Source: Akkermansiaceae bacterium (GTDB lineage Bacteria; Verrucomicrobiota; Verrucomicrobiia; Verrucomicrobiales; Akkermansiaceae). From it: a stretch of DNA of 43,897 nt. Below the pieces are notes generated by a model, which was given only the letters and a program-made list of their open reading frames with translations, did no database searches and was not told the DNA's origin. Position 1 is the stretch's first letter. Each line of letters opens with the position of its first letter. The stretch covers positions 1 to 43,897 of the forward strand of contig CAIVKO010000210.1 of assembly GCA_903906515.1 (NCBI GenBank). Direction: 5' to 3'. Both the position numbers and the translations under genes were made by a program. This document shows, in pieces, positions 24,302 to 43,897 of this stretch.

Positions 24302-24566
24302 AGCGTCGGAAACCCCACTTCTAACATTTCGAATACAGAAGGAACAACCCATATCCAAAGGAAGGTTTTCACCCTGTCAGGAGATTGGGGAGCCAGCATC
24401 CAATAACCATCGAACCCCCATCAAACTTACACCCCGGTAGCGGGTGGCAGACCTTTGACCATTCTCGCTGAACTCAAAAAGGGCTGGACGGTGATGCGAA
24501 ACGTTGACTATAAACCGCAGTGTTCTTGCAACTTTCCCTAAACCCATATTCTCCTCAGTAGCTGAA

Positions 24567-25269
24567 ATGATGATGTTCAAGTTGTCTATATCGATTGTGA
24601 TTCTGGCATGCGTCGCCCCCCCGACGTCTGCTCAGGAAAGCGATCAAAAGCCTGAGTCTCCTCCGGTGAATACGCATGAACAATTGCAACAGATGGCAGG
24701 GAAAGACGATTTCAAACCATTTGATGGCAATCCGGTATTGCGACCGGGAGCGAAGGGTGAGTGGGATGCTGGGGCACTGGGGACGATGAACGTGTTGAAG
24801 GTGGGTGATGTGCTCCATCTGTATTACGAGGCATGGGGCGTGCGCAGCAGCAAATCCGACAACTGGTCGGAATTCGCCTCCCTTCAAATCGGACACGCCA
24901 CCTCACCCGACGGCATCCACTGGACGAAGGATCCGGCCAATCCCGTTCTGCCAAAAGGTGGCGAAAACGACTGGGATCGCGACGGAACGTGGGATCCGTT
25001 TGTCTTGTATGAGAATGGCGTATTCAAGATGTGGTATGGTGCTGGCCAGAAACAATGCGACTGGGGTTACGCGGTCTCAACCGATGGGGTTCATTTCGTG
25101 AAGAAAGGCCAGATCAGCCACATCGGCCAGGTCGAGGACGACTTTGTGGTTCATGACCCGGCCAGCGGTCATTATTTCATGTATTACAGGGATCGGTTAC
25201 TACGACCAAAAAGACTGCGATATCCGCGTGGCAATACGCAACGGCCGGTTGGATCGCGAAATGAAATGA
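24567..25269 (+). pseudogene. secreted five-bladed propeller glycosidase-like gene, frameshifted
   Basis: The frame opens with a signal peptide (MMMFKLSISIVILACVAPPTSA) and continues with features of GH43/GH32/GH130-like propellers: DGNPVLRPGAKGEWDAG, IGHATSPDGIHWTKDPANPVL, WDPFVLYENGVFKMWYGA. Reading is normal to YFMYYRDR near 25193. In that frame the sequence then turns into arginine-rich noise. One base over, the frame reads GYYDQKDCDIRVAIRNGRLD, a fitting continuation, and stops at 25269. A one-base frameshift near 25190-25197 therefore breaks the gene, and it also ends early. A sequencing error is possible but would still leave a short protein. Confidence 0.7.
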
Positions 25270-25278
25270 ATTCACCCC

Positions 25279-25707
25279 ATGTATAAAAGAGCTAACGGAT
25301 TCAAACGAATATTGGCGTTTTTATTCGACATTATTCCCATTTGGCTTTTGACCCTTCTTTTGTACAAAATCATCACAGATCAAAGCCCAATGATCGACGG
25401 ACCCTTGGCCCGAATGACGCATGGACAGATTTGGATCAAAGACGCATGGGTGCCGATATGGATCTTATATTGTTCGATCATGGAATGCACGCCGTTGCGG
25501 GGCACGCTGGGCAAGAAATATATGGGACTTGAAGTGCTTGGTCCTGGCCGCCGTCCGTTGCGATTGGGTCGTGCATTAGGCCGGAATTTCGCCAAGATTT
25601 TATCATTCATCCCTTGTTCCCTGGGATTTTTTTGGGCCCTTTTCTCCAAAAACTCCAAAGCATGGCACGATTCAATGGCAGGATGTGGTGTTTATGAGAA
25701 ACAATGA
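25279..25707 (+). CDS. RDD family membrane protein
   Basis: The 142-residue protein has the RDD domain layout: an N-terminal arginine and aspartate around the first membrane helix (FKRILAFLFDIIPIWLL), a second helix (WVPIWILYCSI), the GTLGKKYMGLEVLG segment typical of the family, and a final helix before KAWHDSMAGCGV. RDD proteins are thought to act in transport or membrane homeostasis, with few tested. It starts 10 bases after the broken glycosidase gene ends. Confidence 0.85.
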   Translation: MYKRANGFKRILAFLFDIIPIWLLTLLLYKIITDQSPMIDGPLARMTHGQIWIKDAWVPIWILYCSIMECTPLRGTLGKKYMGLEVLGPGRRPLRLGRALGRNFAKILSFIPCSLGFFWALFSKNSKAWHDSMAGCGVYEKQ

Positions 25708-32608: not shown

Positions 32609-32695
32609 GAGGTAGTCTGATTCAAAACCGTCGGCAGGATGATTTTCCGCAACGGGCCGGAAGGCAATCGCTGATTTTCAACGGAATACAAGCAC

Positions 32696-32814
32696 GGATG
32701 TGAAACCGGACGATTCTGGGGGCTTTTTCGTGGTTTTCAGGGGCTGGCTTTGCATTTTTCGCGATATTTTGCCATTCCCCGCGCAAGAAGTCCTTGGCAT
32801 TTCCGTATGATCGG
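32696..32814 (+). promoter_or_regulatory. duplicated 119-bp upstream region, copy 1
   Basis: This stretch before the tandem esterase gene is about 89% identical (106 of 119, no gaps) to 34785-34903 before the transporter gene. Best-kept parts are GCTTTGCATTTTTCGCG, TATTTTGCCATTCCCCGCGC and CATTTCCGTAT. The distance from its end to the chosen start is 82 bases. It is likely a shared control or leader region. Confidence 0.7.
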
Positions 32815-32896
32815 GAGATTGGCGGACTCTCAAAGATACTTCAAAATCTCACTCCACCTGCCACGATCACGCTCTTTTAACATAGGAATCAATACG

Positions 32897-34669
32897 ATGA
32901 AAAAGCTGTTCACTCTCTGTTCTTGTTCTTGGTTGCTGGCTGCCGTTCTGGCGTTTGCCGGGGAGCGGGTCGCGCTGTGGCCGGAAGGAAAGATTCCGGA
33001 TTTCCAGCCCCAGCAAATCGCGGCGACCACCCTGGAGGCAAAAGCGCCGGGATTCAAGGCAGCGGAAAACACGATGCCACATCTCGACTGGTATGAGCCG
33101 CCCGCTGAAAAAAATGGCGGATGCATGCTGCTCATTTCCGGCGGTGGTTATCAAAATTGCTGCGACGGGGCGGCGATTGAACGGGCTGCCAAGAAGTTCA
33201 CGGAACTCGGTTTCGTCTGCGTGAACCTCACCTACCGCACGCCGCGCCCGCTGAAACTGCCGATCTACCAGAGCGCGTGGGAGGACGGACAACGCGCCGT
33301 CCGTCTCGTCCGCAACGAGGCGAAAAAACGCGGCTTCGACCCTGAGAAAATCGGCGCGTTCGGATTCTCCGCAGGTTCACACTTGACGGTCCTGCTCGCG
33401 ACGAGCGCGCTCACGCCGGCATACGAACCGGTCGACGAACTCGACAAGCTCCCGTGCCACGTCAACTGGGCGGTGCCGGTTTACACCGCCTACGCTCTCA
33501 CGGATGGCCTGACCGGCACCAACACGCACAATGGCGATGCGCCCGACGTAAAGCTTTCGGACGTGTTCAAGTTCGACGCGAAGACCTGTCCGATGGCGCT
33601 CTTCCACGGCGGAGTGGATGCCTATTCACCGAATGGTTCCACGCAGATCTACCGCCAGCTCCGCAGGATGAAAATTCCGGCCGAGATCCATCTCTTCGCC
33701 GACCGTCCCCACGGTTTCATGGGCGACCCCGCGAAGGGTGACAACGGCACCGCCTACGACCACTGGTTCGACCGTGTCGCGGAGTTCCTCCGCCAAATGA
33801 ATTATGACGGCCGTCTCGGCAAGGAGGTCGATCTGATGGCGCGTTATCCGAACGACGATTCGCGCGCCAGCTACAGCAAGGAGCCGCTCTGGCCGGAAGG
33901 AAAGATGCCGGATGTGCAGGCAAAACAATGCCAGCCTTATCTCGAGTGGCACATGCCGAAGGAACTCAAGACGAAGGCAATCCAGATCATCTATTCGGGC
34001 GGCGCCTACCAAGGCAATAATCCAGACGGATTCGAGGTCGCGCCGACACGGCGTTATCTCAATGAAAAGGGTATGGCGGTCGTGACGGTGAAATACCGCA
34101 CGCCGCGCCCGCAAGGCGGACTGGCCAAGCACACGACGGCATGGCAGGACCTGCAGCGGGCCATCCGGATCGTCCGCAGCGAGGCTGCGGCGAAGGGGCT
34201 TGATCCCGACCGCATCGGCATCATGGGTTCCTCGGCTGGCGGACATCTAACACTCATGGGCGCGACCAGCTCGAAAAGCCTATCTTATACGCCGATTGAC
34301 GACCTCGACAAGTTCCCCTGCAACGTGCAATGGGCGGTCGCGATCTATCCGGCATACGCACTCACGGATGGTGCGGAATCGCCCAATGCAAAGGGCGGCA
34401 ACGAGGACGACGCAAAGCTCGTCCCTGAGTTTTCCTTCGACCCGACGACGTGTCCGGTCATGTTCATCCACGGCGACGCCGATGGTTGGGCGGCCATGAA
34501 TTCAGTGAAATGCTGGGAACAACTCCGGCGGATGAAAATCCAGTCCGACCTGCACACGCTTGTCGGACGCAATCACTGCTTCCAGAGGACTGCCGCACCG
34601 GGCACTGGCAGCTTTACCTGGATGGATCGTATTTGGGAATTCATGAACCATAAAGGATACAACAAGTAA
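32897..34669 (+). CDS. secreted tandem alpha/beta-hydrolase (esterase-like), two catalytic domains
   Basis: The 590-residue protein starts with a signal peptide (KKLFTLCSCSWLLAAVLAFAG) and then has two similar alpha/beta-hydrolase domains of about 288 residues each. Each begins with a LWPEGK(I/M)P(D) segment. Domain 1 has nucleophile S158 in FGFSAGSH, then HGGVDAY and RPHGF. Domain 2 has S446 in MGSSAGGH, then HGDADGW and NHCF. Both therefore keep Ser-Asp-His. The fold resembles acetyl-xylan or BD-FAE type carbohydrate esterases, so removal of acyl groups from glycans outside the cytoplasm is plausible but not shown. The start at 32897 was chosen for the signal peptide; upstream frame extends into the repeated region. 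Confidence 0.8.
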   Translation: MKKLFTLCSCSWLLAAVLAFAGERVALWPEGKIPDFQPQQIAATTLEAKAPGFKAAENTMPHLDWYEPPAEKNGGCMLLISGGGYQNCCDGAAIERAAKKFTELGFVCVNLTYRTPRPLKLPIYQSAWEDGQRAVRLVRNEAKKRGFDPEKIGAFGFSAGSHLTVLLATSALTPAYEPVDELDKLPCHVNWAVPVYTAYALTDGLTGTNTHNGDAPDVKLSDVFKFDAKTCPMALFHGGVDAYSPNGSTQIYRQLRRMKIPAEIHLFADRPHGFMGDPAKGDNGTAYDHWFDRVAEFLRQMNYDGRLGKEVDLMARYPNDDSRASYSKEPLWPEGKMPDVQAKQCQPYLEWHMPKELKTKAIQIIYSGGAYQGNNPDGFEVAPTRRYLNEKGMAVVTVKYRTPRPQGGLAKHTTAWQDLQRAIRIVRSEAAAKGLDPDRIGIMGSSAGGHLTLMGATSSKSLSYTPIDDLDKFPCNVQWAVAIYPAYALTDGAESPNAKGGNEDDAKLVPEFSFDPTTCPVMFIHGDADGWAAMNSVKCWEQLRRMKIQSDLHTLVGRNHCFQRTAAPGTGSFTWMDRIWEFMNHKGYNK

Positions 34670-34784
34670 ACATGCGGCCAAACGCATTCCCATTACCGGG
34701 AGGAATGAGTTTGGGCATTTGCTTGAGGACGTATGCCCCCCACGCAAATAGAGACACCCCGCTGGATTCACACCATACGCGCAA

Positions 34785-34903
34785 GGATGTGAAACCCGAC
34801 GATTCTGGAGGCTTTTTCGATGTTTTCACGGATTAGCTTTGCATTTTTCGCGGTATTTTGCCATTCCCCGCGCAAGAAATCCTTAACATTTCCGTATTAT
34901 CGG
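34785..34903 (+). promoter_or_regulatory. duplicated 119-bp upstream region, copy 2
   Basis: Counterpart of 32696-32814 with 13 substitutions and no insertions. It ends 28 bases before the transporter's ATG (against 82 for copy 1), so the repeat is not simply the start-codon context. Similarity falls off sharply on both sides. Confidence 0.7.
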
Positions 34904-34931
34904 TCGGTTTCCGGATTTTCTGCTTCTTCGA

Positions 34932-36668
34932 ATGGCCACAGACAGAAAACAGATCATCGAGCTCACCTGGAAGCGCTTTCGCAGCGCTCTCCAGATGCTT
35001 GCGAAGTCCAAGCAAGGCCCCAAGGCCCTGATGTTTGCCATCACCCTGGTCATTCTAATGTTCGCAATCAACGGCCTGAACGTGCTCAACAGCTACGTCG
35101 GACGGGATTTCATGTCGGCCATCGAGAACAAGGATCTGGGGATTTTCGAAACGCAGGCGATTTTGTATGCGGGGGTGTTCCTAGTCTCCACGGTGGTTCT
35201 GGTCTTTTACCGTTTCACCGAGGAGCGGCTGGGGATTCTCTGGCGCGAGCAATTAACGTGGCGGCTGACGGAAGCCTATCTGAGCGAGCGCACCTACTAT
35301 CGCCTCGACTCCGCCACCGGCGTGGCCAATCCCGACCAGCGGATCGCCGAGGACGTCAGAGCATTCACCACCACCACACTTTCGTTCACCCTGCTTATCA
35401 TCAACGGCACCCTCACCGCAGTGTCCTTCTCCGGGGTTTTGTGGAGTATCAGCCCGGTCCTGTTTACTGTCGCGGTGATCTACGCGGTCAGCGGAACCGT
35501 GATGACCATCTTGTTAGGAAAACCGCTGATCCGCCTCAACTACCACCAGCTCGACATGGAAGCGAATTTCCGCTCCGACCTGATCCATGTCCGCGAAAAC
35601 TCGGAATCTATCGCCCTCGCGCATCGTGAAGGACGTTTCAAGGCCCGACTGAAATCCCGGCTGGACGCGCTGACCGGAAACTTCCGCCGCCTCATCCGCA
35701 TCAACCGCAACCTCGGGTTTTTCACCAACGCATACAACTATTTCATCCAGATCATCCCGGCGCTGCTGATCGCGCCGCTCTTCATCAAGGGTCAGGTCGA
35801 GTTCGGTGTGATCACCCAGTCCACCATGGCCTTCGCTACGTTGTTAGGGGCATTCTCCCTCATTGTGACGCAGTTTCAATCGATTTCCGCATTCACGGCG
35901 GTCACGGCGCGACTGCATCTGCTCAGCGAAGCGATCGACAAAGCCCACCACACTCGGCCGTGCTCGATCCTTACCGAGGAGGCCCCGGACCGCGTGGTTT
36001 ATGAAAATGTGACGCTGCATACCGCGGACAACTCGCGCCTGCTGCTGGAAAATCTCAATCTTGAAATCCTCAAGGGATCGCGCTGGTTGTTCACAGGCGT
36101 GGATGACGTTAGCAAGGTGGCCTTGTTCCGCGCCACGGCGAGCGTTTGGGATTGCGGTGGTGGAAAAATCATCCGCCCCGGGCTCGATGACATTCTATTT
36201 CTACCGGAGCGACCCTACCTTCCTCCTGGAGCCTTGCGTGACGCATTATTGCGCACCGGCATGGAAGCAGTGACCACCGATGATGAAATCATGGTCGTCA
36301 TCACGAAGCTGGGACTCGAAGGCGTGGTGGAACGCGTGGGTGGATTGAGCGCACAATGCGATTGGGACGACGAATTCTCAATCGGCGAACAACACATGCT
36401 GTCCATCGCCCGAATTTTCCTGGCGAAACCCGCGATTGTATTTCTCGACCGCCCCGGGAGTTCGCTGCCCAAGTCACAAATTTCGAGTATCCTCGACATG
36501 CTGGCCGAGCAGGAGATCGGCGTGGTCATCCTCGCGAAGAATGGCGAGGCACGGCTCCACTACGACTCCTGTCTTGAAATCAAGGCCGACGGCAAGTGGG
36601 AGGTGCACCACGAATCCAATTCTCAAGCAAGCGTGGAATACGCCGAACTCCGCGACTTGAGTTGCTAA
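34932..36668 (+). CDS. SbmA/ABCD-like transporter with degenerate ATPase domain
   Basis: The 578-residue protein has an ABC_membrane_2 region as in SbmA/BacA, YddA and peroxisomal ABCD transporters: six membrane helices and LGILWREQLTWRLTEAYL, YYRLDSATGVANPDQRIAEDV, a segment typical of the family. The C-terminal 220 residues align to an ABC ATPase, but key residues are gone. Walker A is TGVDDVSKVA (388-397): two glycines are lost and the Ser/Thr after K395 is Val. Walker B is FLDRPGS, D506 kept, the catalytic Glu replaced by R507. The signature is SIGEQHML (S483-L490). The protein probably does not hydrolyse ATP, as in the peptide importer SbmA, which is proton-driven and lacks an ATPase domain. 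It lies 27 bases before the GH94 gene. Confidence 0.82.
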   Translation: MATDRKQIIELTWKRFRSALQMLAKSKQGPKALMFAITLVILMFAINGLNVLNSYVGRDFMSAIENKDLGIFETQAILYAGVFLVSTVVLVFYRFTEERLGILWREQLTWRLTEAYLSERTYYRLDSATGVANPDQRIAEDVRAFTTTTLSFTLLIINGTLTAVSFSGVLWSISPVLFTVAVIYAVSGTVMTILLGKPLIRLNYHQLDMEANFRSDLIHVRENSESIALAHREGRFKARLKSRLDALTGNFRRLIRINRNLGFFTNAYNYFIQIIPALLIAPLFIKGQVEFGVITQSTMAFATLLGAFSLIVTQFQSISAFTAVTARLHLLSEAIDKAHHTRPCSILTEEAPDRVVYENVTLHTADNSRLLLENLNLEILKGSRWLFTGVDDVSKVALFRATASVWDCGGGKIIRPGLDDILFLPERPYLPPGALRDALLRTGMEAVTTDDEIMVVITKLGLEGVVERVGGLSAQCDWDDEFSIGEQHMLSIARIFLAKPAIVFLDRPGSSLPKSQISSILDMLAEQEIGVVILAKNGEARLHYDSCLEIKADGKWEVHHESNSQASVEYAELRDLSC

Positions 36669-36695
36669 CCCAAAAGATCGGCGCATTCCCGATCC

Positions 36696-39600
36696 ATGAA
36701 AACACCACCAGAAACCCAAACTGTTTTTCCTGTTCGTATTTCCAACCCGTCAGGATTGAGTATGGAGGTTAATTCCAACGGCTCCATCCGGCGGATCGAT
36801 CACAGCGATATCATGATCAACCTGTTCCTCGGCAACGAGGCTGACGGCGGACCTGCCAATATCTATCTCCGTGAGCATGGTGCCACCATGAGATCGGTTC
36901 CCATGCTTGGCCCGCAAAGCCCGGCGGTTTTCGATGTCCACGAGGGTGGATTCTCGGCAACCGGACACTGGAATGATCTGGTTTTCCGCGTAAAGCTTGT
37001 TCTAGCGGAATCCACCCCGGCATGGTTCTGGCATGTGGAAGTGGAAAACACCGGTAAGACCGCGGTGACTTGCGATCTGCTTTTCGCCCAAGATCTGGGA
37101 CTGGCTCACTACGGAGCCATCCGCCTGAATGAATATTATGTCAGCCAGTATGTGGACCACACTGCGCTGACTCACGATAAACACGGCGTGTGCGTCGCAT
37201 CGCGCCAGAACCAGTCGATGGGCGGACGCTGCCCGTGGACGGTCGTCGGCTCGCTGCGCCGGGGGATTTCGTATGCCACCGATGCCATGCAGTTCCATGG
37301 GCTCTCGACCCGCTCGGGTGGCTCCGCACAGGCGCTTGCCGATGGCCTGCCGGGCAAACGCCTGCAACACGAGCATTCCATGGCCTGTATCCAGGACGAA
37401 CCCATCACTCTGGCTGCGGGTGAAAGAAAAAACTGCGGATTTTTCTGCGGATTCGAAGTGAACAAGCCGGACGCCACATCAGAAGCCGATTTATCACGGA
37501 TTGATGCGGTGATGTCTCTGCCTGAATCCGCCGCCCCGCAGTGGTCTGCCGACGGCGATGGATCGCATGGCTCCGCCTCGCTCTTCACCACGGCCACTCT
37601 GTTAGAAACACTGAATCTGGACGACACGGAAATCCAATCGTTGTTCAGCGGGAAAATCCTCCATCCCGAGCATGACAACGGATGCCTGCTTTCATTTTTC
37701 AACAGCTCCGGAAATCATGTGGTGCTAAAGGCGAAAGAACTCAAGGTGCTTCGCCCCCACGGTCATCTGCTGCGCACCGGAGCTTCCCCGACGCCGGATG
37801 AATCCGCCCTGACATCCACCGCCTGGATGGCCGGCGTCTTCCATTCGATGGTCACCCAAGGGCATGTAAGCATCAACCGCTTCCTCTCCACCTGCCATAC
37901 CTATCTCGGATTGTTCCGCAGCCACGGCCAGCGGGTGTTTGTGGAAACCGACGGCAAGTGGGTTTTGTTAGGTTTACCATCCGCGTTTGAAATGGCGACC
38001 GCATCATGCCGCTGGATCTACAAACATGCCGACGGCCTCATCGAGGTGGTTTCCACCGCTCAGGAATCAGCCCATGAGCTGGGACTCTCGATCCGCATCC
38101 TCAAAGGTAATGCCGCCAGATTCCTGATCACCCACCACGTCGCCATGAATGGTGATGACGGCAGCCCTGCCATCCCCGTGGTTTTCGAGACGGATGAAAA
38201 CGGGGTCTTCGTCCGCTCCGTGCCGGACTGCGATGTGGGCCGCCGCTTCCCTGATGGAGAATTCCGAATCGCTCCTGCGGATGGCACGGTGTTCGAATCC
38301 ATCGGCGGCGACGACGAATTGTTTACCGATCGGGTTTCACGCAATCAACCGTTCCTCAACATCACCACCGCGCCAACTCTAACCGCCGGTCTTGTGATCA
38401 CCGGACATCTGGTGGACGACCAAACGCCACAAGCCGCGCCCCCCCTAACACCCAATGCGGTGGTGACATCGCCGGGAGAGTCGTCACACTCCCCCGCCGT
38501 GGCGCGGATTTCAACGATGCTGCCATGGTTCATGCACAACGCCCTGGTGCACTACCTTTCCCCGCGGGGCCTGGAACAATACTCCGGCGGCGGATGGGGA
38601 ACCCGCGATGTCTGCCAAGGCCCGGTGGAATTACTGCTGGCACTCGGCCGCTTCGATGTGGTGCGCGACCTGCTCCTGCGCGTGTTCCGCCAACAGAATG
38701 CGGATGGCGACTGGCCACAGTGGTTCATGTTCTTCGACCGCGAGCGCAACATCCGCCCCGGCGACTCGCATGGCGATATCGTCTATTGGCCGGTCCTCGC
38801 ATTGGCCCAGTATCTCGATGCCACCGGTGACGCCACGGTGCTCGATGAATCGCTGCCATTTTTCCATCCGGATGGCGATGCATCCGCAGAACACGTGAGC
38901 GTGTCGGACCATGTCGAACGTGCACTGAATGTAATTCTGACCCGTGTGATCCCCGGCAGCAATCTCGCATCCTACGGCCACGGCGACTGGAATGACTCGC
39001 TCCAACCCGTGAAATCCGACATGCGTGAGCGCCTCTGCAGTTCGTGGACGGTGACGCTCAATTATCAGACATTCATCGCACTCGCGGATGCCTACAAACG
39101 CATCGGCAATTCCGGGCGCGCGGCGGAACTCGCCGCCATAGCTAACAAAATCATCGATGAATTCCAACGCGTGCTCATCGTGGACGATGTCGTGACCGGC
39201 TTCGCCTATTTCCACGAATCCGGAAAGACGGATTTCCTCCTGCACCCACTTGATGGAGTCACCGGACTTTCACACAGCTTGCTGCCAATGATCCATGCGA
39301 TCATCAACGACATGCTCACCCCGAGCCAGGCGGAAAACCATCTGACCGTCATACGCAAGCACCTGCTAGGACCCGATGGCGCTCATCTTTTCAACCGCCC
39401 GATGGTCTATCGAGGCGGGCCGCAGACATTGTTCCAACGTGCGGAGAGCGCGAGTTACTTCGGCCGGGAAATCGGCATCATGTACACCCACGCCCACCTG
39501 CGCTATTGCGAGGCGCTCGCGCGTTTCGGCGATGCGGAGGGCTTTTTCCACGCGCTTTGCCAGGCGGTGCCGATCGGCATCCGTGAAATCGTCCCCTCGG

Positions 39601-40061
39601 CCACGCTGCGCCAGTCGAACTGTTACTATTCGAGTTCGGACCCGGCGTTTGCAGACCGTTACGAGGCTTACAACGATTATGAAAAGGTGAACAGCGGAGA
39701 AGTGCCGCTCGAAGGAGGTTGGCGCGTTTATTCCAGCGGCGCGGGCATCAGCTTCCGACTCGTGATCCAGTGCTTCCTCGGCATCCGTGAAACACTGTCC
39801 CATCTGGTGGTGGACCCGGTGATTCCGGCTCGATTGGACGGATTGGAAGCCACCGTGAAAATCGCCGGACGAAACATCACGGTGCTCTATCGCATCGGAG
39901 CGAACGGCTGCGGCACCGCGTCCGTCAACATCAACGGTGAGGATCTCGATTTCGTCAGGAAAAACAACCCCTACCGCCCTGGTGCGGTCGCGGTTCCCAT
40001 GGGGGACATCCTTGCGAACCTCAAGGATTCCGAGAACCTCCTCACGATATCGATCGGTTGA
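36696..40061 (+). CDS. GH94 phosphorylase, 1,2-beta-oligoglucan phosphorylase-like
   Basis: The 1121-residue protein matches the length and layout of 1,2-beta-oligoglucan phosphorylases (about 1110 residues), which split beta-1,2-linked glucose chains with phosphate to glucose 1-phosphate. The (alpha/alpha)6 barrel has QYSGGGWGTRDVCQGPVE, FRQQNADGDWPQWFMFFDRE, GDSHGDIVYWPVLALAQY, and YGHGDWNDSLQPV, whose Asp764 or Asp767 is the general acid of GH94. FGREIGIMYTHAHLRYCEAL and GGWRVYSSG are further family parts. No signal peptide was found, so it should act in the cytoplasm. It is flanked at 27 and 44 bases by the transporter and aroB, so co-transcription is likely. Other GH94 substrates (cellobiose, laminaribiose) are less likely at this length. 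Confidence 0.82.
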   Translation: MKTPPETQTVFPVRISNPSGLSMEVNSNGSIRRIDHSDIMINLFLGNEADGGPANIYLREHGATMRSVPMLGPQSPAVFDVHEGGFSATGHWNDLVFRVKLVLAESTPAWFWHVEVENTGKTAVTCDLLFAQDLGLAHYGAIRLNEYYVSQYVDHTALTHDKHGVCVASRQNQSMGGRCPWTVVGSLRRGISYATDAMQFHGLSTRSGGSAQALADGLPGKRLQHEHSMACIQDEPITLAAGERKNCGFFCGFEVNKPDATSEADLSRIDAVMSLPESAAPQWSADGDGSHGSASLFTTATLLETLNLDDTEIQSLFSGKILHPEHDNGCLLSFFNSSGNHVVLKAKELKVLRPHGHLLRTGASPTPDESALTSTAWMAGVFHSMVTQGHVSINRFLSTCHTYLGLFRSHGQRVFVETDGKWVLLGLPSAFEMATASCRWIYKHADGLIEVVSTAQESAHELGLSIRILKGNAARFLITHHVAMNGDDGSPAIPVVFETDENGVFVRSVPDCDVGRRFPDGEFRIAPADGTVFESIGGDDELFTDRVSRNQPFLNITTAPTLTAGLVITGHLVDDQTPQAAPPLTPNAVVTSPGESSHSPAVARISTMLPWFMHNALVHYLSPRGLEQYSGGGWGTRDVCQGPVELLLALGRFDVVRDLLLRVFRQQNADGDWPQWFMFFDRERNIRPGDSHGDIVYWPVLALAQYLDATGDATVLDESLPFFHPDGDASAEHVSVSDHVERALNVILTRVIPGSNLASYGHGDWNDSLQPVKSDMRERLCSSWTVTLNYQTFIALADAYKRIGNSGRAAELAAIANKIIDEFQRVLIVDDVVTGFAYFHESGKTDFLLHPLDGVTGLSHSLLPMIHAIINDMLTPSQAENHLTVIRKHLLGPDGAHLFNRPMVYRGGPQTLFQRAESASYFGREIGIMYTHAHLRYCEALARFGDAEGFFHALCQAVPIGIREIVPSATLRQSNCYYSSSDPAFADRYEAYNDYEKVNSGEVPLEGGWRVYSSGAGISFRLVIQCFLGIRETLSHLVVDPVIPARLDGLEATVKIAGRNITVLYRIGANGCGTASVNINGEDLDFVRKNNPYRPGAVAVPMGDILANLKDSENLLTISIG

Positions 40062-40105: not shown

Positions 40106-41194
40106 ATGCAAAACGTCCATGTCGATCTCGCCGACCGCTCCTACGATGTCCTCGTGGTACCCGGAATCCTGAGCCAAACAGGCAAACTTATCGCAAAAAC
40201 CGGTCTCGCCGGATGCCGCGCCGCCGTTATCAGCGATGAAACCGTGGCCCACCACCACGCGGACGCTCTTATCGAATCACTCGAATCCGCCGGTTTCCGC
40301 CCCACCCTGCACACCGTGCCCGCAGGCGAGTCATCCAAGTCACTGCCCCATGTGGAAACCCTCTGCCGCGAGATGATCCGCGCCGGCCACGACCGGAAAT
40401 CTGCCGTCGTCGCGCTCGGCGGTGGCGTCGTCGGCGACCTCGCAGGATTTGTATCCTCGATGTTCTATCGGGGGCTGCCCTTCGTCCAAATCCCCACTAC
40501 CATCGTCGCCCAGGTCGATTCATCGGTCGGCGGAAAAACCGGCGTCAACGTGGCAGAAGGAAAAAACTTGTTAGGAGCATTCCACCAACCGCGCCTGGTC
40601 ATCGTCGATCCGGAAACCCTACGCACCCTGCCGGACCGCGAATTTCACGAGGGTTTCGCGGAAGCCATCAAACACGCCGCCATCCGCGATGCCGCGATGC
40701 TCGACGAACTCGCCGCACTCGACCCCGCCAGCCGCGATGTCCCGGCGGACCTGATCGCCCGCAACATCGCGATCAAAGCCCGCGTCGTAGAGGCGGACGA
40801 ACATGAAACGCGCGGCATTCGCGCCCTGCTCAACTTCGGCCACACCATCGGCCACGGCATCGAAGCCTCCGTCCCATACGGCGAAATGCTGCACGGCGAG
40901 GCGATCTCGCTCGGCATCCGTGCCGCGCTCTTCCTCTCGGAACGCCGCGCCGGTCTCACCCCGGAGGACTCCGAAAAAATCCTTTCTTTGTTAGAAAAAT
41001 TCCACCTCCCACTCGTTCTATCCAGATCAATCACCACGGAAACGGTGATGGAAAAACTCGCCAAGGACAAAAAATTCGCGTCCGGTGCCATCCGCTTCGT
41101 CGTGATCGATGCCCCCGGCCATGCCAAGGTGGTGGACAACATCACCCAAGCAGACCTCATCGAGGCCATCGAGCATCTGCGGTCTCGTGGTTGA
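40106..41194 (+). CDS. aroB: 3-dehydroquinate synthase
   Basis: The 362-residue enzyme makes 3-dehydroquinate from DAHP, the second step of the shikimate pathway, using NAD+ and a metal. Key parts: AVVALGGGVVGDLAGF, FVQIPTTIVAQVDSSVGGKTGVN, GKNLLGAFHQPRLV, and the metal ligands in EGFAEAIKHA, NFGHTIGHGIE and GEMLHGEAISLG. The ATG at 40106 (MQNVHVDLADRSY) was chosen over an upstream TTG at 40058. It follows the GH94 gene by 44 bases and is convergent with the macroglobulin gene. Confidence 0.96.
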   Translation: MQNVHVDLADRSYDVLVVPGILSQTGKLIAKTGLAGCRAAVISDETVAHHHADALIESLESAGFRPTLHTVPAGESSKSLPHVETLCREMIRAGHDRKSAVVALGGGVVGDLAGFVSSMFYRGLPFVQIPTTIVAQVDSSVGGKTGVNVAEGKNLLGAFHQPRLVIVDPETLRTLPDREFHEGFAEAIKHAAIRDAAMLDELAALDPASRDVPADLIARNIAIKARVVEADEHETRGIRALLNFGHTIGHGIEASVPYGEMLHGEAISLGIRAALFLSERRAGLTPEDSEKILSLLEKFHLPLVLSRSITTETVMEKLAKDKKFASGAIRFVVIDAPGHAKVVDNITQADLIEAIEHLRSRG

Positions 41195-41517: not shown

Positions 41518-43897
41518 TCACTCGATTCTCAGCTTGATGTCTTCCGAGTTGCCGCGGAGTTCGGGGGCATACATGGCGGAGGCTTCGGCGGGCAGGGCTT
41601 TGTAAGTGCCGGGCGCCTCGGCGCGGAGTTGATAGCGCAGGGTGTGTGTGCCACGCGGCAGTGCGCGGATGAAGAAGTCCACCGTTTGATCGCGCGGTTC
41701 CATGTAGGTGCTGAATCCGCCATCGCCGGAAATGTATCCGCTCAGGGCGTCCAGCGCTTCGAATCCTGCGGCCTTGGCATCGGAGAAAAGCAGGTATTCG
41801 TAGTCATTCTTGCTTTCAAGAATGAGCTCCACCTCGATGCGATCGCCGGATTTCAACGAATCGCCGTCGGCCAGAGGCTCGCGCTTGAAGCGCTCCACCC
41901 GTTGTTTGGCGATGAGTCCGGTGGAATCGGGGACTTCGGTTTCTTTTTCGAGGGCGACGAGTTTGGAAACCTTGCGTTGCACCTTCACTTCGAGTCCGGC
42001 GGCGCGGAGCTTGTCTTCGAGGGTGAAGACTTCGAGATAGGCGTTCGCATAAAGCGTTCCCTTGCCGGTCTTGCGGAGTTCGATGTCGTGCTTCCCGGTG
42101 GTGACGGCATCTCCGGTTAGAAGAACCGTGCCATCGAAGGTGAAAAGGTTGTCACGATCGATGGTGAGTTTCTTCATCGACTTGCCGTCCATCAGAACCT
42201 CGACTTCCATTTCCGGGACACTCTCGCCGCTGGCCTTGAAATAGGTGGCGATGGCCTCGATGGCAAAGGCGGTGTCACGGGTGGACTCCCAATAACTGGC
42301 GTGTTTGCGGTTGTTGACGAGGTATTTCACCAGACCGCGGGTATCAGCATCCTTGGGTTTCACCGCAGCGAGCAGCTTGAGATACCATGCGTGCGCCTCC
42401 ACTTCGCTGCCATACCAGAACCACCAGCAATGCGTGTTCTGGAGATCCAGATAAGCCGTTTGATTTTCCGGATCCCGCTTGAGGTTCTGTGAAATCATCT
42501 TCATCAACTCATCGCGGCGGGCTTCGTCACCCTTGCGGTGTTCTTCCAGGCCGACGAGGCACTTGGCATAAACCGGCAGGTCGATGCGGTCGCGGTAGAG
42601 GAAGGCAAGCATCGGCTCGGAATCGCGCTTGGCCTCGCCGAGCACCAGGCGGTTGAATGCATCGAGGGCATCGGCTTTGGCCTTCTCGTAGCGGTTGTCG
42701 TCTTTGACCTTCTTGCCCGCATCACGCAGCGCCTGGCGTTCGACGTAGAGCTGCAGGGCCACGACTTGTTTTTTCTCGTAGGACGCCAACCAGCCGATTC
42801 CGGCGTTGATCATGGGCTCGGGGATTTTCGCGCCATTCGCCTTTGCAACTAACAATCCATGGACCACCACCGCCGTCGTGTGCGGATAGGAATATTCGCC
42901 ATGACCGGAGAACCATCCCCAGCCACCATCGGAGTTTTGCATGGACATGAGTTTGTCCACACCGGCGGAAACCATCTTCTCGATTTCATGTTCATCGAAA
43001 ACCGGGTTTTCCTTCCATTGTTTCCACTGTGCGGCGCGGTCGGCGGCATTGCCGAGTTCCTGCGGATTCAGGTTGTTCCGCTTGGCTTTGACTTCCGCGA
43101 GATTGATCTTGAGATCACCGAGAAGCTTCTGCGCGATCACAGCGGGAACGAAACGATTCAACGTTTGTTCGGTGCAACCATATGGATAACTCGCCAGATA
43201 GGGGATGGCATCCACCACGGCACCCGCGATCGTCGGCGACACCCTGACCGTGAGCTTCGATTGATCCGGTCGGCGTTTTTCCGGCACTTCCATTTGGATT
43301 TTCGCGGAGTTCTGGTCCGGTTCGACCACGCGGCTCCACGCGTCCTGACGGGACATGCCGTGCACGAGCACCGGCAGCTTGCGCTCGACGGCATCGCCAT
43401 CGTCGCCGGAATCGGCCTTCATGCGCAAGGTCGCCTCGCCTTCGCGCATGGCTTTGACCCGCCAATCGACCCGGGCCTCGGACTTCGCGGCGATTTCCAC
43501 GGTCTTCGCCGCACCATCGATGGCTTCGATATTCTTTCCATCGAGTTCCAACGAAACTTTAACCGTTTTCGGCGCATCATGATCGTTATGCACTACCGCG
43601 CTGAACACCGCTTCATCGCGCTCGACGAGGAAGCGCGGTGCCTGCAAGCGGACCAACAATTCCTTGGAGGTGATGATTTCGGTCGAGCCTTCACCGACAT
43701 GGGTGTCGTTGCCAAGCACCCAAACGCGAGCCTTCCAGGTCGTGAGGTTGTCGGGGAACTCCAGTGGAACCACGACACAACCGTCGGCATCCGTCTGGAT
43801 CGCGCCGGACCACTTCATGAGATCCGCGAAGTCCTTGCGGACAAGAATAGGAGCAGCACCCGCAGCACGGTCGGGATTATTGAGAATCGCATCGATA
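41518..43897 (-). CDS. bacterial alpha-2-macroglobulin family protein, partial
   Basis: The frame is open to the right edge (no stop from 43897 down), so only the C-terminal 790 or so residues are seen. At the edge the text reads VRKDFADLMKWSGAIQTDADG, the family's MG domain pattern, followed by FPDNLTTWKARVWVLG. The thioester motif CTEQ is present in YPYGCTEQTLNRF, within the helical thioester domain (later repeats such as GGWGWFSGHGEYSYPHTTAVV). Receptor-binding-like C-terminal beta domains end the protein. Such proteins trap attacking proteases in the periplasm, usually as lipoproteins next to a class A penicillin-binding protein; that partner, if present, lies outside the window. An internal ATG at 43818 is not the true start. 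Confidence 0.9.
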   Translation of the reverse strand, partial: IDAILNNPDRAAGAAPILVRKDFADLMKWSGAIQTDADGCVVVPLEFPDNLTTWKARVWVLGNDTHVGEGSTEIITSKELLVRLQAPRFLVERDEAVFSAVVHNDHDAPKTVKVSLELDGKNIEAIDGAAKTVEIAAKSEARVDWRVKAMREGEATLRMKADSGDDGDAVERKLPVLVHGMSRQDAWSRVVEPDQNSAKIQMEVPEKRRPDQSKLTVRVSPTIAGAVVDAIPYLASYPYGCTEQTLNRFVPAVIAQKLLGDLKINLAEVKAKRNNLNPQELGNAADRAAQWKQWKENPVFDEHEIEKMVSAGVDKLMSMQNSDGGWGWFSGHGEYSYPHTTAVVVHGLLVAKANGAKIPEPMINAGIGWLASYEKKQVVALQLYVERQALRDAGKKVKDDNRYEKAKADALDAFNRLVLGEAKRDSEPMLAFLYRDRIDLPVYAKCLVGLEEHRKGDEARRDELMKMISQNLKRDPENQTAYLDLQNTHCWWFWYGSEVEAHAWYLKLLAAVKPKDADTRGLVKYLVNNRKHASYWESTRDTAFAIEAIATYFKASGESVPEMEVEVLMDGKSMKKLTIDRDNLFTFDGTVLLTGDAVTTGKHDIELRKTGKGTLYANAYLEVFTLEDKLRAAGLEVKVQRKVSKLVALEKETEVPDSTGLIAKQRVERFKREPLADGDSLKSGDRIEVELILESKNDYEYLLFSDAKAAGFEALDALSGYISGDGGFSTYMEPRDQTVDFFIRALPRGTHTLRYQLRAEAPGTYKALPAEASAMYAPELRGNSEDIKLRIE

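Follow-up and report, generated by a model that had tools for sequence, protein, structure and literature searches.

A Transporter–Phosphorylase Gene Pair

The window analyzed here, a stretch of 43,897 nucleotides from an Akkermansiaceae bacterium (assembly GCA_903906515.1, contig CAIVKO010000210.1), encodes an esterase, a transporter, and a glycoside hydrolase family 94 (GH94) phosphorylase in succession on its + strand, as a first-pass annotation had noticed. The transporter frame (34932–36668, 578 aa) comprises a transmembrane domain (TMD) of the YddA/Rv1819c type (residues 1–335; 34932–35936), assigned by Pfam, PDB, tree, and Foldseek, followed by a degenerate nucleotide-binding domain (NBD) at about residues 345–560 (35964–36611), recognized by motif reading and a structure model. 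The phosphorylase (1121 aa; 36696–40061) begins 27 nt past the transporter.

The GH94 protein contains the Pfam domains SOGP_N (25–250), SOGP_2nd (325–561), Glyco_hydro_94, and SOGP_4th, and matches the 1,2-beta-oligoglucan phosphorylase (SOGP) of L. phytofermentans (LpSOGP; PDB 5h3z) over its full length with an E value of 3.5e-176; Ndom1, Ndom2, and the catalytic barrel, which make up the SOGP architecture, are all present. The 14 LpSOGP ligand or pocket residues that line subsites −1, +1, and +2 and the phosphate site are identical in all 28 aligned sequences (the window protein, L043–L067, L079, and L083, with the 890-aa fragment L039 excluded; L and G numbers designate loci and genomes throughout). 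Their positions come from the part of PMC5309861 that describes them and were transferred by eye on the window–5h3z alignment, with Y1004 and S1005 placed via the GGWRxYSS motif. While the window SOGP resembles LpSOGP and LiSOGP in domain make-up and substrate residues, its clade differs from them at subsite +2, where G623 is replaced by Ser and A626 by Gly; seven distant SOGPs have Asn and Ala there. Judged by domains, PDB match, and substrate residues, the protein is an SOGP, and the first-pass assignment stands.

The Transporter NBD Is Degenerate

Pfam matches of the transporter are to ABC_membrane_2 (E 5.1e-42) and SbmA_BacA (E 2.4e-16), with ABC_tran under the cut-off (E 9.8e-4). Rv1819c is both the best PDB match (6tqe, E 1.5e-55) and the best Foldseek match of the structure model, which has a mean predicted local distance difference test score (pLDDT) of 76.9, with blocks in the NBD mostly at 80–93. 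Fusion of an ABC_membrane_2 TMD to an NBD fold is characteristic of the YddA lineage of type IV ATP-binding cassette (ABC) transporters. The window protein shares the TMD family and the TMD–NBD fusion order with YddA/BclA and Rv1819c and differs from them in its degenerate motifs and in its neighbors, which are beta-glucan enzymes.

The first-pass annotation had treated the transporter as SbmA-like and, since SbmA proteins carry peptides, had left the role open. SbmA/BacA proteins (SLiPT) are proton driven and free of an NBD, and window-type transporters are alike in that their NBD is unused or absent. However, the window protein retains the NBD fold (six TMD-only relatives do not), has no TM0 extension in the alignment, and matches only E193 and E276 of the six SbmA ladder glutamates (E193, E203, E269, E276, E287, and E378). 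SbmA membership is ruled out by this ladder and by the tree described below; alignment, motifs, and tree instead place the protein in the YddA/Rv1819c lineage. Transporter neighbors elsewhere are carbohydrate enzymes, with no peptide genes.

The window NBD lacks what an ABC transporter needs to function: the Walker A motif GxxGxGK[ST], the catalytic Glu, the Q-loop, and the H-loop. The Walker A position reads GVDDVSKV, devoid of the Walker A glycines, the usual LDEATSAL has become LDRPGSSL (catalytic Glu to Arg), FLPQRPY has become FLPERPY (Q-loop Gln to Glu), and the H-loop His is gone. On these motifs, the domain very probably does not hydrolyze ATP.

Degeneration extends well beyond the window. 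A scan of species genomes yielded at least 582 transporter relatives, and motif reading of the best 80 showed 30 degenerate and 49 intact NBDs, with one protein cut by a contig end (L098). Hosts of the 30 degenerate NBDs among these 80 are Verrucomicrobiota, Gammaproteobacteria (including Chromatium okenii, Thiorhodococcus, Thiobaca, and Methylococcus), Methyloversatilis, Desulfobacterium and other Deltaproteobacteria, and two Planctomycetota. None of the 28 readable proteins from 29 additional family loci has a Walker A motif, and L208 alone among them retains the catalytic Glu. In dead NBDs, the lysine position of Walker A often persists, as does part of the signature. Loss is incomplete in some members: L097 still has the Q-loop Gln and a Walker A close to the canonical form but has lost the catalytic Glu and H-loop His, and L095 retains the Q-loop Gln. 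The L096 protein stops short of the Walker B region. A second YddA-type transporter is encoded in the window genome (G000:C28:7179-8846; L069, L243), with 56% identity and an NBD that is degenerate too.

Stepwise Loss of the NBD

A TMD tree was built from 89 sequences and 321 columns, with SbmA serving as outgroup; L071, a duplicate of L060, was left out. Proteins with a dead NBD and those consisting of the TMD only form one clade of 39 (ultrafast bootstrap 100), whose sister group (97) consists of six intact proteins from Verrucomicrobiota. The dead-NBD clade spans Verrucomicrobiota, Pseudomonadota, and Desulfobacterota, and transitional proteins from Planctomycetota lie at its base; the order in which these (L097 and L116) branch has little support (41). 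The six TMD-only proteins form a clade of their own (100) nested inside the dead clade, nearest to the dead-NBD proteins L092 and L101 (100) and to L084 (99), and in their loci the SOGP starts where the NBD would be. Because this nested position is far from SbmA, NBD loss here appears independent of that in SbmA. In four genomes carrying both SOGP and c0, a gene family described below (G023, G033, G051, and G053), a TMD-only protein is the sole transporter match at E <= 1e-60, as scored over the seven best candidates per genome, and the NBD would therefore be dispensable there.

The dead NBDs are not decaying. Their ratio of nonsynonymous to synonymous substitution rates (dN/dS) is 0.07–0.21 in seven pairs (an eighth was saturated), compared with 0.13–0.25 in five intact pairs, which rules out decay and places the dead NBD under purifying selection. 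In five of the pairs the dead NBD evolves faster than its own TMD. Read together, tree and motifs describe a lineage that lost its ATPase motifs and then the domain, the NBD being first inactivated yet kept and later deleted.

Two acidic TMD residues, E97 and D208, are invariant in all 36 dead or TMD-only sequences, and an acid is found there in 5/48 and 3/49 intact proteins, respectively (L071, L097, L098, and L116 were left out of this comparison). Their interpretation as a signature of proton coupling is weakened by the intact sister proteins, of which five of six have E97 and three of six have E208.

Conserved Gene Neighbors

Comparison of gene order across 26 SOGP loci supports the proposal that transporter and phosphorylase form a unit. 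The transporter lies directly upstream of the SOGP in eight of them, being TMD-only in six and carrying a dead NBD in two, including the window; the two genes also adjoin in L079 and, in reverse order, in L083. Another recurrent neighbor is a gene for a protein of about 1,030 aa, here termed c0, which adjoins the transporter or the SOGP in 16 loci. SOGP, transporter, and c0 are contiguous in L083, and in Thiobaca (L290) c0 follows the SOGP by 62 nt. A GH1 gene comes directly after the transporter in L082, L085, L086, and L087. Among the best 80 relatives, 15 of 31 flanks (30 with dead NBDs plus L098) contain c0, a module GH94, GH1, or opgG, versus one of 49 flanks of intact transporters (L107).

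The catalytic part of c0 has no Pfam or NCBIfam family above cut-off, and inspection by eye showed no evident signal peptide. The protein includes a CBM32-like domain and is predicted to adopt a supersandwich plus (alpha/alpha)6 fold (mean pLDDT 76.4 for a model based on seven sequences); structure comparison and Foldseek liken residues 308–1017 to (alpha/alpha)6 glycosidases, with Z of about 18–23. This predicted fold is that of GH78, GH65, GH95, GH15, GH116, and GH94, although identity to these families is about 10–15%.

In some relatives the place of the SOGP is taken by a stand-alone GH94 that matches the GH94 of cyclic glucan synthases (E 1.2e-212). Unlike a cyclic glucan synthase, it is a separate protein of about 1,100–1,290 aa, unfused to a glycosyltransferase, and its gene forms an overlapping operon with c0. 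Phosphorolysis of beta-1,2-glucooligosaccharides from DP 3 upward is the reaction that characterizes SOGPs. LpSOGP does not phosphorolyze sophorose (Table 1 within the portion of PMC5309861 used here), and therefore a second enzyme would be needed, a task for which c0 or GH1 could serve. The partners of the Listeria SOGP are a solute-binding ABC system and a GH3 enzyme, according to the sections of PMC12369401 consulted, whereas the window SOGP is associated with a dead-NBD transporter and c0.

Several further arrangements were observed. In L244 (G184:C91) and L107, a YddA-type transporter with an intact NBD, 39–40% identical to that of the window, lies directly beside c0; it may perhaps represent an ATP-driven ancestral state with the same substrate. 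In L250 (13838-18609), c0 is flanked by a cyclic-nucleotide-binding/acetate kinase/phosphate propanoyltransferase fusion and then a glycogen phosphorylase. In L053, L057, L059, L092, and L101, outer-membrane efflux (OEP) genes lie in the vicinity of SOGP or the transporter, and in L101 an AcrB-type gene comes before the OEP gene.

Co-occurrence with Periplasmic Glucan Genes

In a family set of 195 genomes, SOGP was found in 27 (31 matches minus four other GH94s), c0 in 36, a dead or TMD-only transporter in 38 (43 minus five with 35–40% matches only), stand-alone GH94 in 12 (23 minus eleven with cyclic-glucan-synthase-size frames or other GH94s), and MdoG, the family of OpgG, in 60. Motifs or length were read for the transporters of 34 of the 38 genomes; the remaining four (G108, G131, G168, and G172) were assigned on identity or length only. 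The transporter and MdoG are each present in all 36 c0 genomes. The two GH94 types are complementary: 24 of the c0 genomes carry SOGP only and 12 carry stand-alone GH94 only, with none having both or neither. Synthase-sized frames are present in five genomes (G098, G152, G155, G166, and G188), all of which are without c0 and MdoG.

A wider sample consisted of 50 genomes picked by locus, 20 with dead and 30 with intact NBDs. Here c0 was present in 15/20 dead-NBD versus 3/30 intact genomes (p 3.6e-6) and MdoG in 17/20 versus 9/30 (p 1.6e-4), and c0 again always came with MdoG (18/18). Five of these genomes occur in the family set as well: judged by MdoG coordinates, G206, G213, G216, G220, and G222 are equivalent to G133, G125, G079, G184, and G137, respectively; G216 and G220 were counted as intact yet carry a dead-NBD copy too, which works against the contrast. 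Co-occurrence of transporter, c0, and MdoG is thus weaker across phyla but persistent.

The connection to genes for osmoregulated periplasmic glucans (OPGs) is also physical. opgH lies within three reading frames of opgG in 18 of 20 fetched opgG loci, and in L278, from the same genome as L091, c0 and the transporter are divergent from opgG–opgH. A c0-like gene (25–29% identity) sits next to opgG in L284, L286, and L287, the latter two belonging to one genome. The window genome itself encodes GH1, MdoG, and a family-2 glycosyltransferase in succession. GH1 is not a general neighbor of opgG: besides this genome, L286 has one, on the opposite strand, and no gene is so labeled in the other 20 opgG loci.

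The first-pass annotation had pointed out that no beta-1,2-glucanase was seen in the window. A search of the window genome for PF10091 (GH144-type) proteins found none, so that GH144 is ruled out as the missing partner there. The same genome nonetheless encodes two MdoG/OpgG-family proteins, and E. coli OpgG and OpgD are demonstrated, in the part of PMC10514313 consulted, to be beta-1,2-glucanases of family GH186. In a Desulfobacterium locus (L276:13550-19021), a second opgG is directly followed by the gene for a protein of 1823 aa whose GH94 region is of the synthase type and 35% identical to stand-alone GH94.

The Esterase, the Shared Upstream Element, and Flanking Genes

The reading frame of the esterase (32897–34669, + strand) opens at a TTG at 32750; ATG 32897 is the likelier start, as it gives an N terminus that resembles a signal peptide by eye, and the protein is probably secreted. 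Its two alpha/beta-hydrolase domains are supported by Pfam BD-FAE in two stretches (E 7.6e-36), by the NCBIfam PaeX pectin acetylesterase model in two stretches, far under the equivalog cut-off, and by a best PDB match to 6a6o (E 3.2e-18). The nucleophile motifs GFSAGS and GSSAGG, recognized by eye, are of the kind expected in carbohydrate esterases of the PaeX type. Conservation provides no tie between the esterase and the rest of the unit, in which the first-pass annotation had included it: among the 26 SOGP loci, the gene is beside SOGP only in the window.

What connects the esterase to the transporter is an upstream element that both genes share, as first noticed in the earlier annotation. 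This 146-nt repeat is present before the esterase (copy 1, 32686–32831, + strand) and before the transporter (copy 2, 34775–34920, + strand), with 84% identity between copies. It is not a dispersed element, the genome containing these two copies alone; remaining matches are 14–24 nt long with E values of 1.98 or worse. No Rfam family matched in the window or at the repeat. A profile of the ~100-nt core was built from seven sequences, including copy 1, and the core of copy 1 (32718–32818) matches this profile at E 1.3e-22 while being itself one of its source sequences. In 10 other genomes the element lies ~30–45 nt 5' of the transporter orthologue (E 3.3e-6 or better); five of these had contributed sequences to the profile, and the other five (L188, L198, L189, L060, and L192) had not. 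An eleventh match (L183) is weak, at E 0.11, and a weak match in L083 (E 0.33) sits elsewhere. Among the sequences compared, only in the window does the element precede a gene other than the transporter. Because other species carry it upstream of the transporter only, the element is native to that gene, with the esterase apparently having gained a copy; this copy is the sole tie of the esterase to the unit. A role of the esterase in the glucan module is plausible by analogy: a putative acetylesterase gene is likewise part of a beta-1,2-glucan cluster in Streptomyces (in the sections used of PMC12369401), and OPGs can be modified (likewise PMC10514313).

Downstream of the phosphorylase lies aroB, encoding 3-dehydroquinate synthase (40106–41194, + strand; NCBIfam TIGR01357, E 1.3e-108). 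Its likely ATG at 40106 is 44 nt past the phosphorylase gene, with which it is possibly co-transcribed, but none of the other 25 SOGP loci examined has it next to SOGP, and it is not a conserved member of the module. Like the degeneration of the NBD, aroB had escaped the first-pass annotation. Convergent with aroB, a bacterial alpha-2-macroglobulin-like protein is encoded on the − strand (41518–43896) and is cut by the window edge. At 24504–25286 on the + strand, a 260-aa protein has weak GH130/GH32-like matches (E 0.001–0.003, below cut-off).

A Proposed Model for ATP-Free Return of Periplasmic Glucans

The model proposed here starts from gene identities, dead or deleted NBDs, co-occurrence, GH94 complementarity, and physical linkages, all of which are taken from genome sequence. 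It suggests, with a probability of roughly 0.55, that the module returns beta-1,2-glucans, most likely the cell's own OPGs, to the cytoplasm by means of an ATP-free importer and breaks them down there. Glucan would be produced and trimmed in the periplasm by OpgH and OpgG, the esterase might remove acyl groups, and the YddA-type transporter would move it inward without ATP hydrolysis. In the cytoplasm, the glycosidase-like c0 protein, encoded elsewhere in the window genome, and SOGP would degrade it, the latter yielding glucose 1-phosphate; GH1 enzymes may deal with sophorose, which is no substrate for SOGP, and in some relatives the stand-alone cyclic-glucan-synthase-type GH94 would act in place of SOGP. 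From these data we infer the direction of import, the substrate and energy source of the transporter, the activity of c0, and the role of the esterase.

Alternatively, the module might import beta-1,2-glucans released by other bacteria, with the OPG genes being incidental. Such scavenging would fit the probable secretion of the window esterase and the distant SOGPs of G014 and G052, which adjoin a PF10091 (GH144-type) gene (L066 and L067) and, in one case, an MFS_2 sugar transporter gene, a catabolic layout in genomes without MdoG. It is unlikely, however, given that c0 never occurs without MdoG in either genome sample, that L278 places c0 and the transporter divergent to opgG–opgH, that a PF10091 protein was not found in the window genome, and that no outer-membrane uptake gene recurs among the clustered neighbors. 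Purifying selection on the dead NBD, its confidently modeled fold, and the frequent retention of the lysine position in Walker A and of some of the signature would also be expected if the domain still worked in an unusual manner, through non-canonical ATP binding or pairing with an ATPase encoded elsewhere, and the protein remained an ABC transporter; split YddA genes have been reported (section 6 of PMC13316013, a source used in part). Joint loss of the Q-loop, catalytic Glu, and H-loop in most members, together with the nested subclade in which SOGP starts in place of any NBD, renders this quite improbable.

Another alternative runs in the reverse direction. GH94 reactions are reversible, and SOGP and c0 could build beta-1,2-oligosaccharides in the cytoplasm for release by the transporter. 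Type IV ABC folds are mostly exporters, and the OEP genes noted above could be read in the same sense. A dead NBD supplies no drive for export, though, the AcrB-type gene directly before the OEP gene in L101 may account for the latter, and the glycogen phosphorylase and acetate kinase fusion beside c0 in L250 look catabolic, leaving synthesis and export a slim prospect.

Several observations weigh against recycling of OPGs by an ATP-free importer as well. The SbmA proton ladder is absent, and the matched E193 and E276 are also kept in intact homologues, just as acidic residues 97 and 208 are already present in part of the intact sister group. The intact-NBD transporter L107 adjoins c0, showing that the partnership does not depend on ATP loss, and the window genome splits the module, with c0 and the second dead-NBD transporter on other contigs. 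Within the family set, G180 has SOGP and transporter without c0, G168 has the transporter without c0, G014 and G052 carry SOGP without c0, transporter, or MdoG, and 22 of the 60 MdoG genomes are without the transporter; the p values of 1e-10 to 1e-37 obtained for co-occurrence ignore relatedness, c0 being present in 3 of 16 genera. In the wider sample, five of 20 dead-NBD genomes are without c0 and three of 20 without MdoG, including both transitional Planctomycetota, and some of the c0 matches are incomplete or at ~30% identity (G203, G207, and G212).

Implications

One proposal derives SbmA from a YddA-like ABC transporter through loss of the NBD (PMC13316013), but the parts of that source consulted present no intermediates. 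The family described here provides a separate series in which intact, partly degenerate (L097), dead but maintained, and deleted NBDs are all represented, and the passage from primary to secondary transport can be tested with proteins whose TMDs are about 50% identical. For the YddA lineage, whose function in E. coli is described as unknown in the same portions of PMC13316013, it offers a concrete candidate substrate class. A search of the open-licence literature, with subscription papers outside its scope, found no published report of a link among transporter, SOGP, and OPG genes. A broader claim is made only tentatively: that ABC-derived oligosaccharide importers of several phyla have abandoned ATP, their NBD being inactivated and later deleted independently of SbmA, to serve an undescribed OPG salvage, and that c0 represents a new family of glycoside hydrolases or phosphorylases. 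The data hint at a periplasmic glucan recycling route that has so far gone undescribed, and offer candidate genes for the degradation of OPGs and their return to the cytoplasm.

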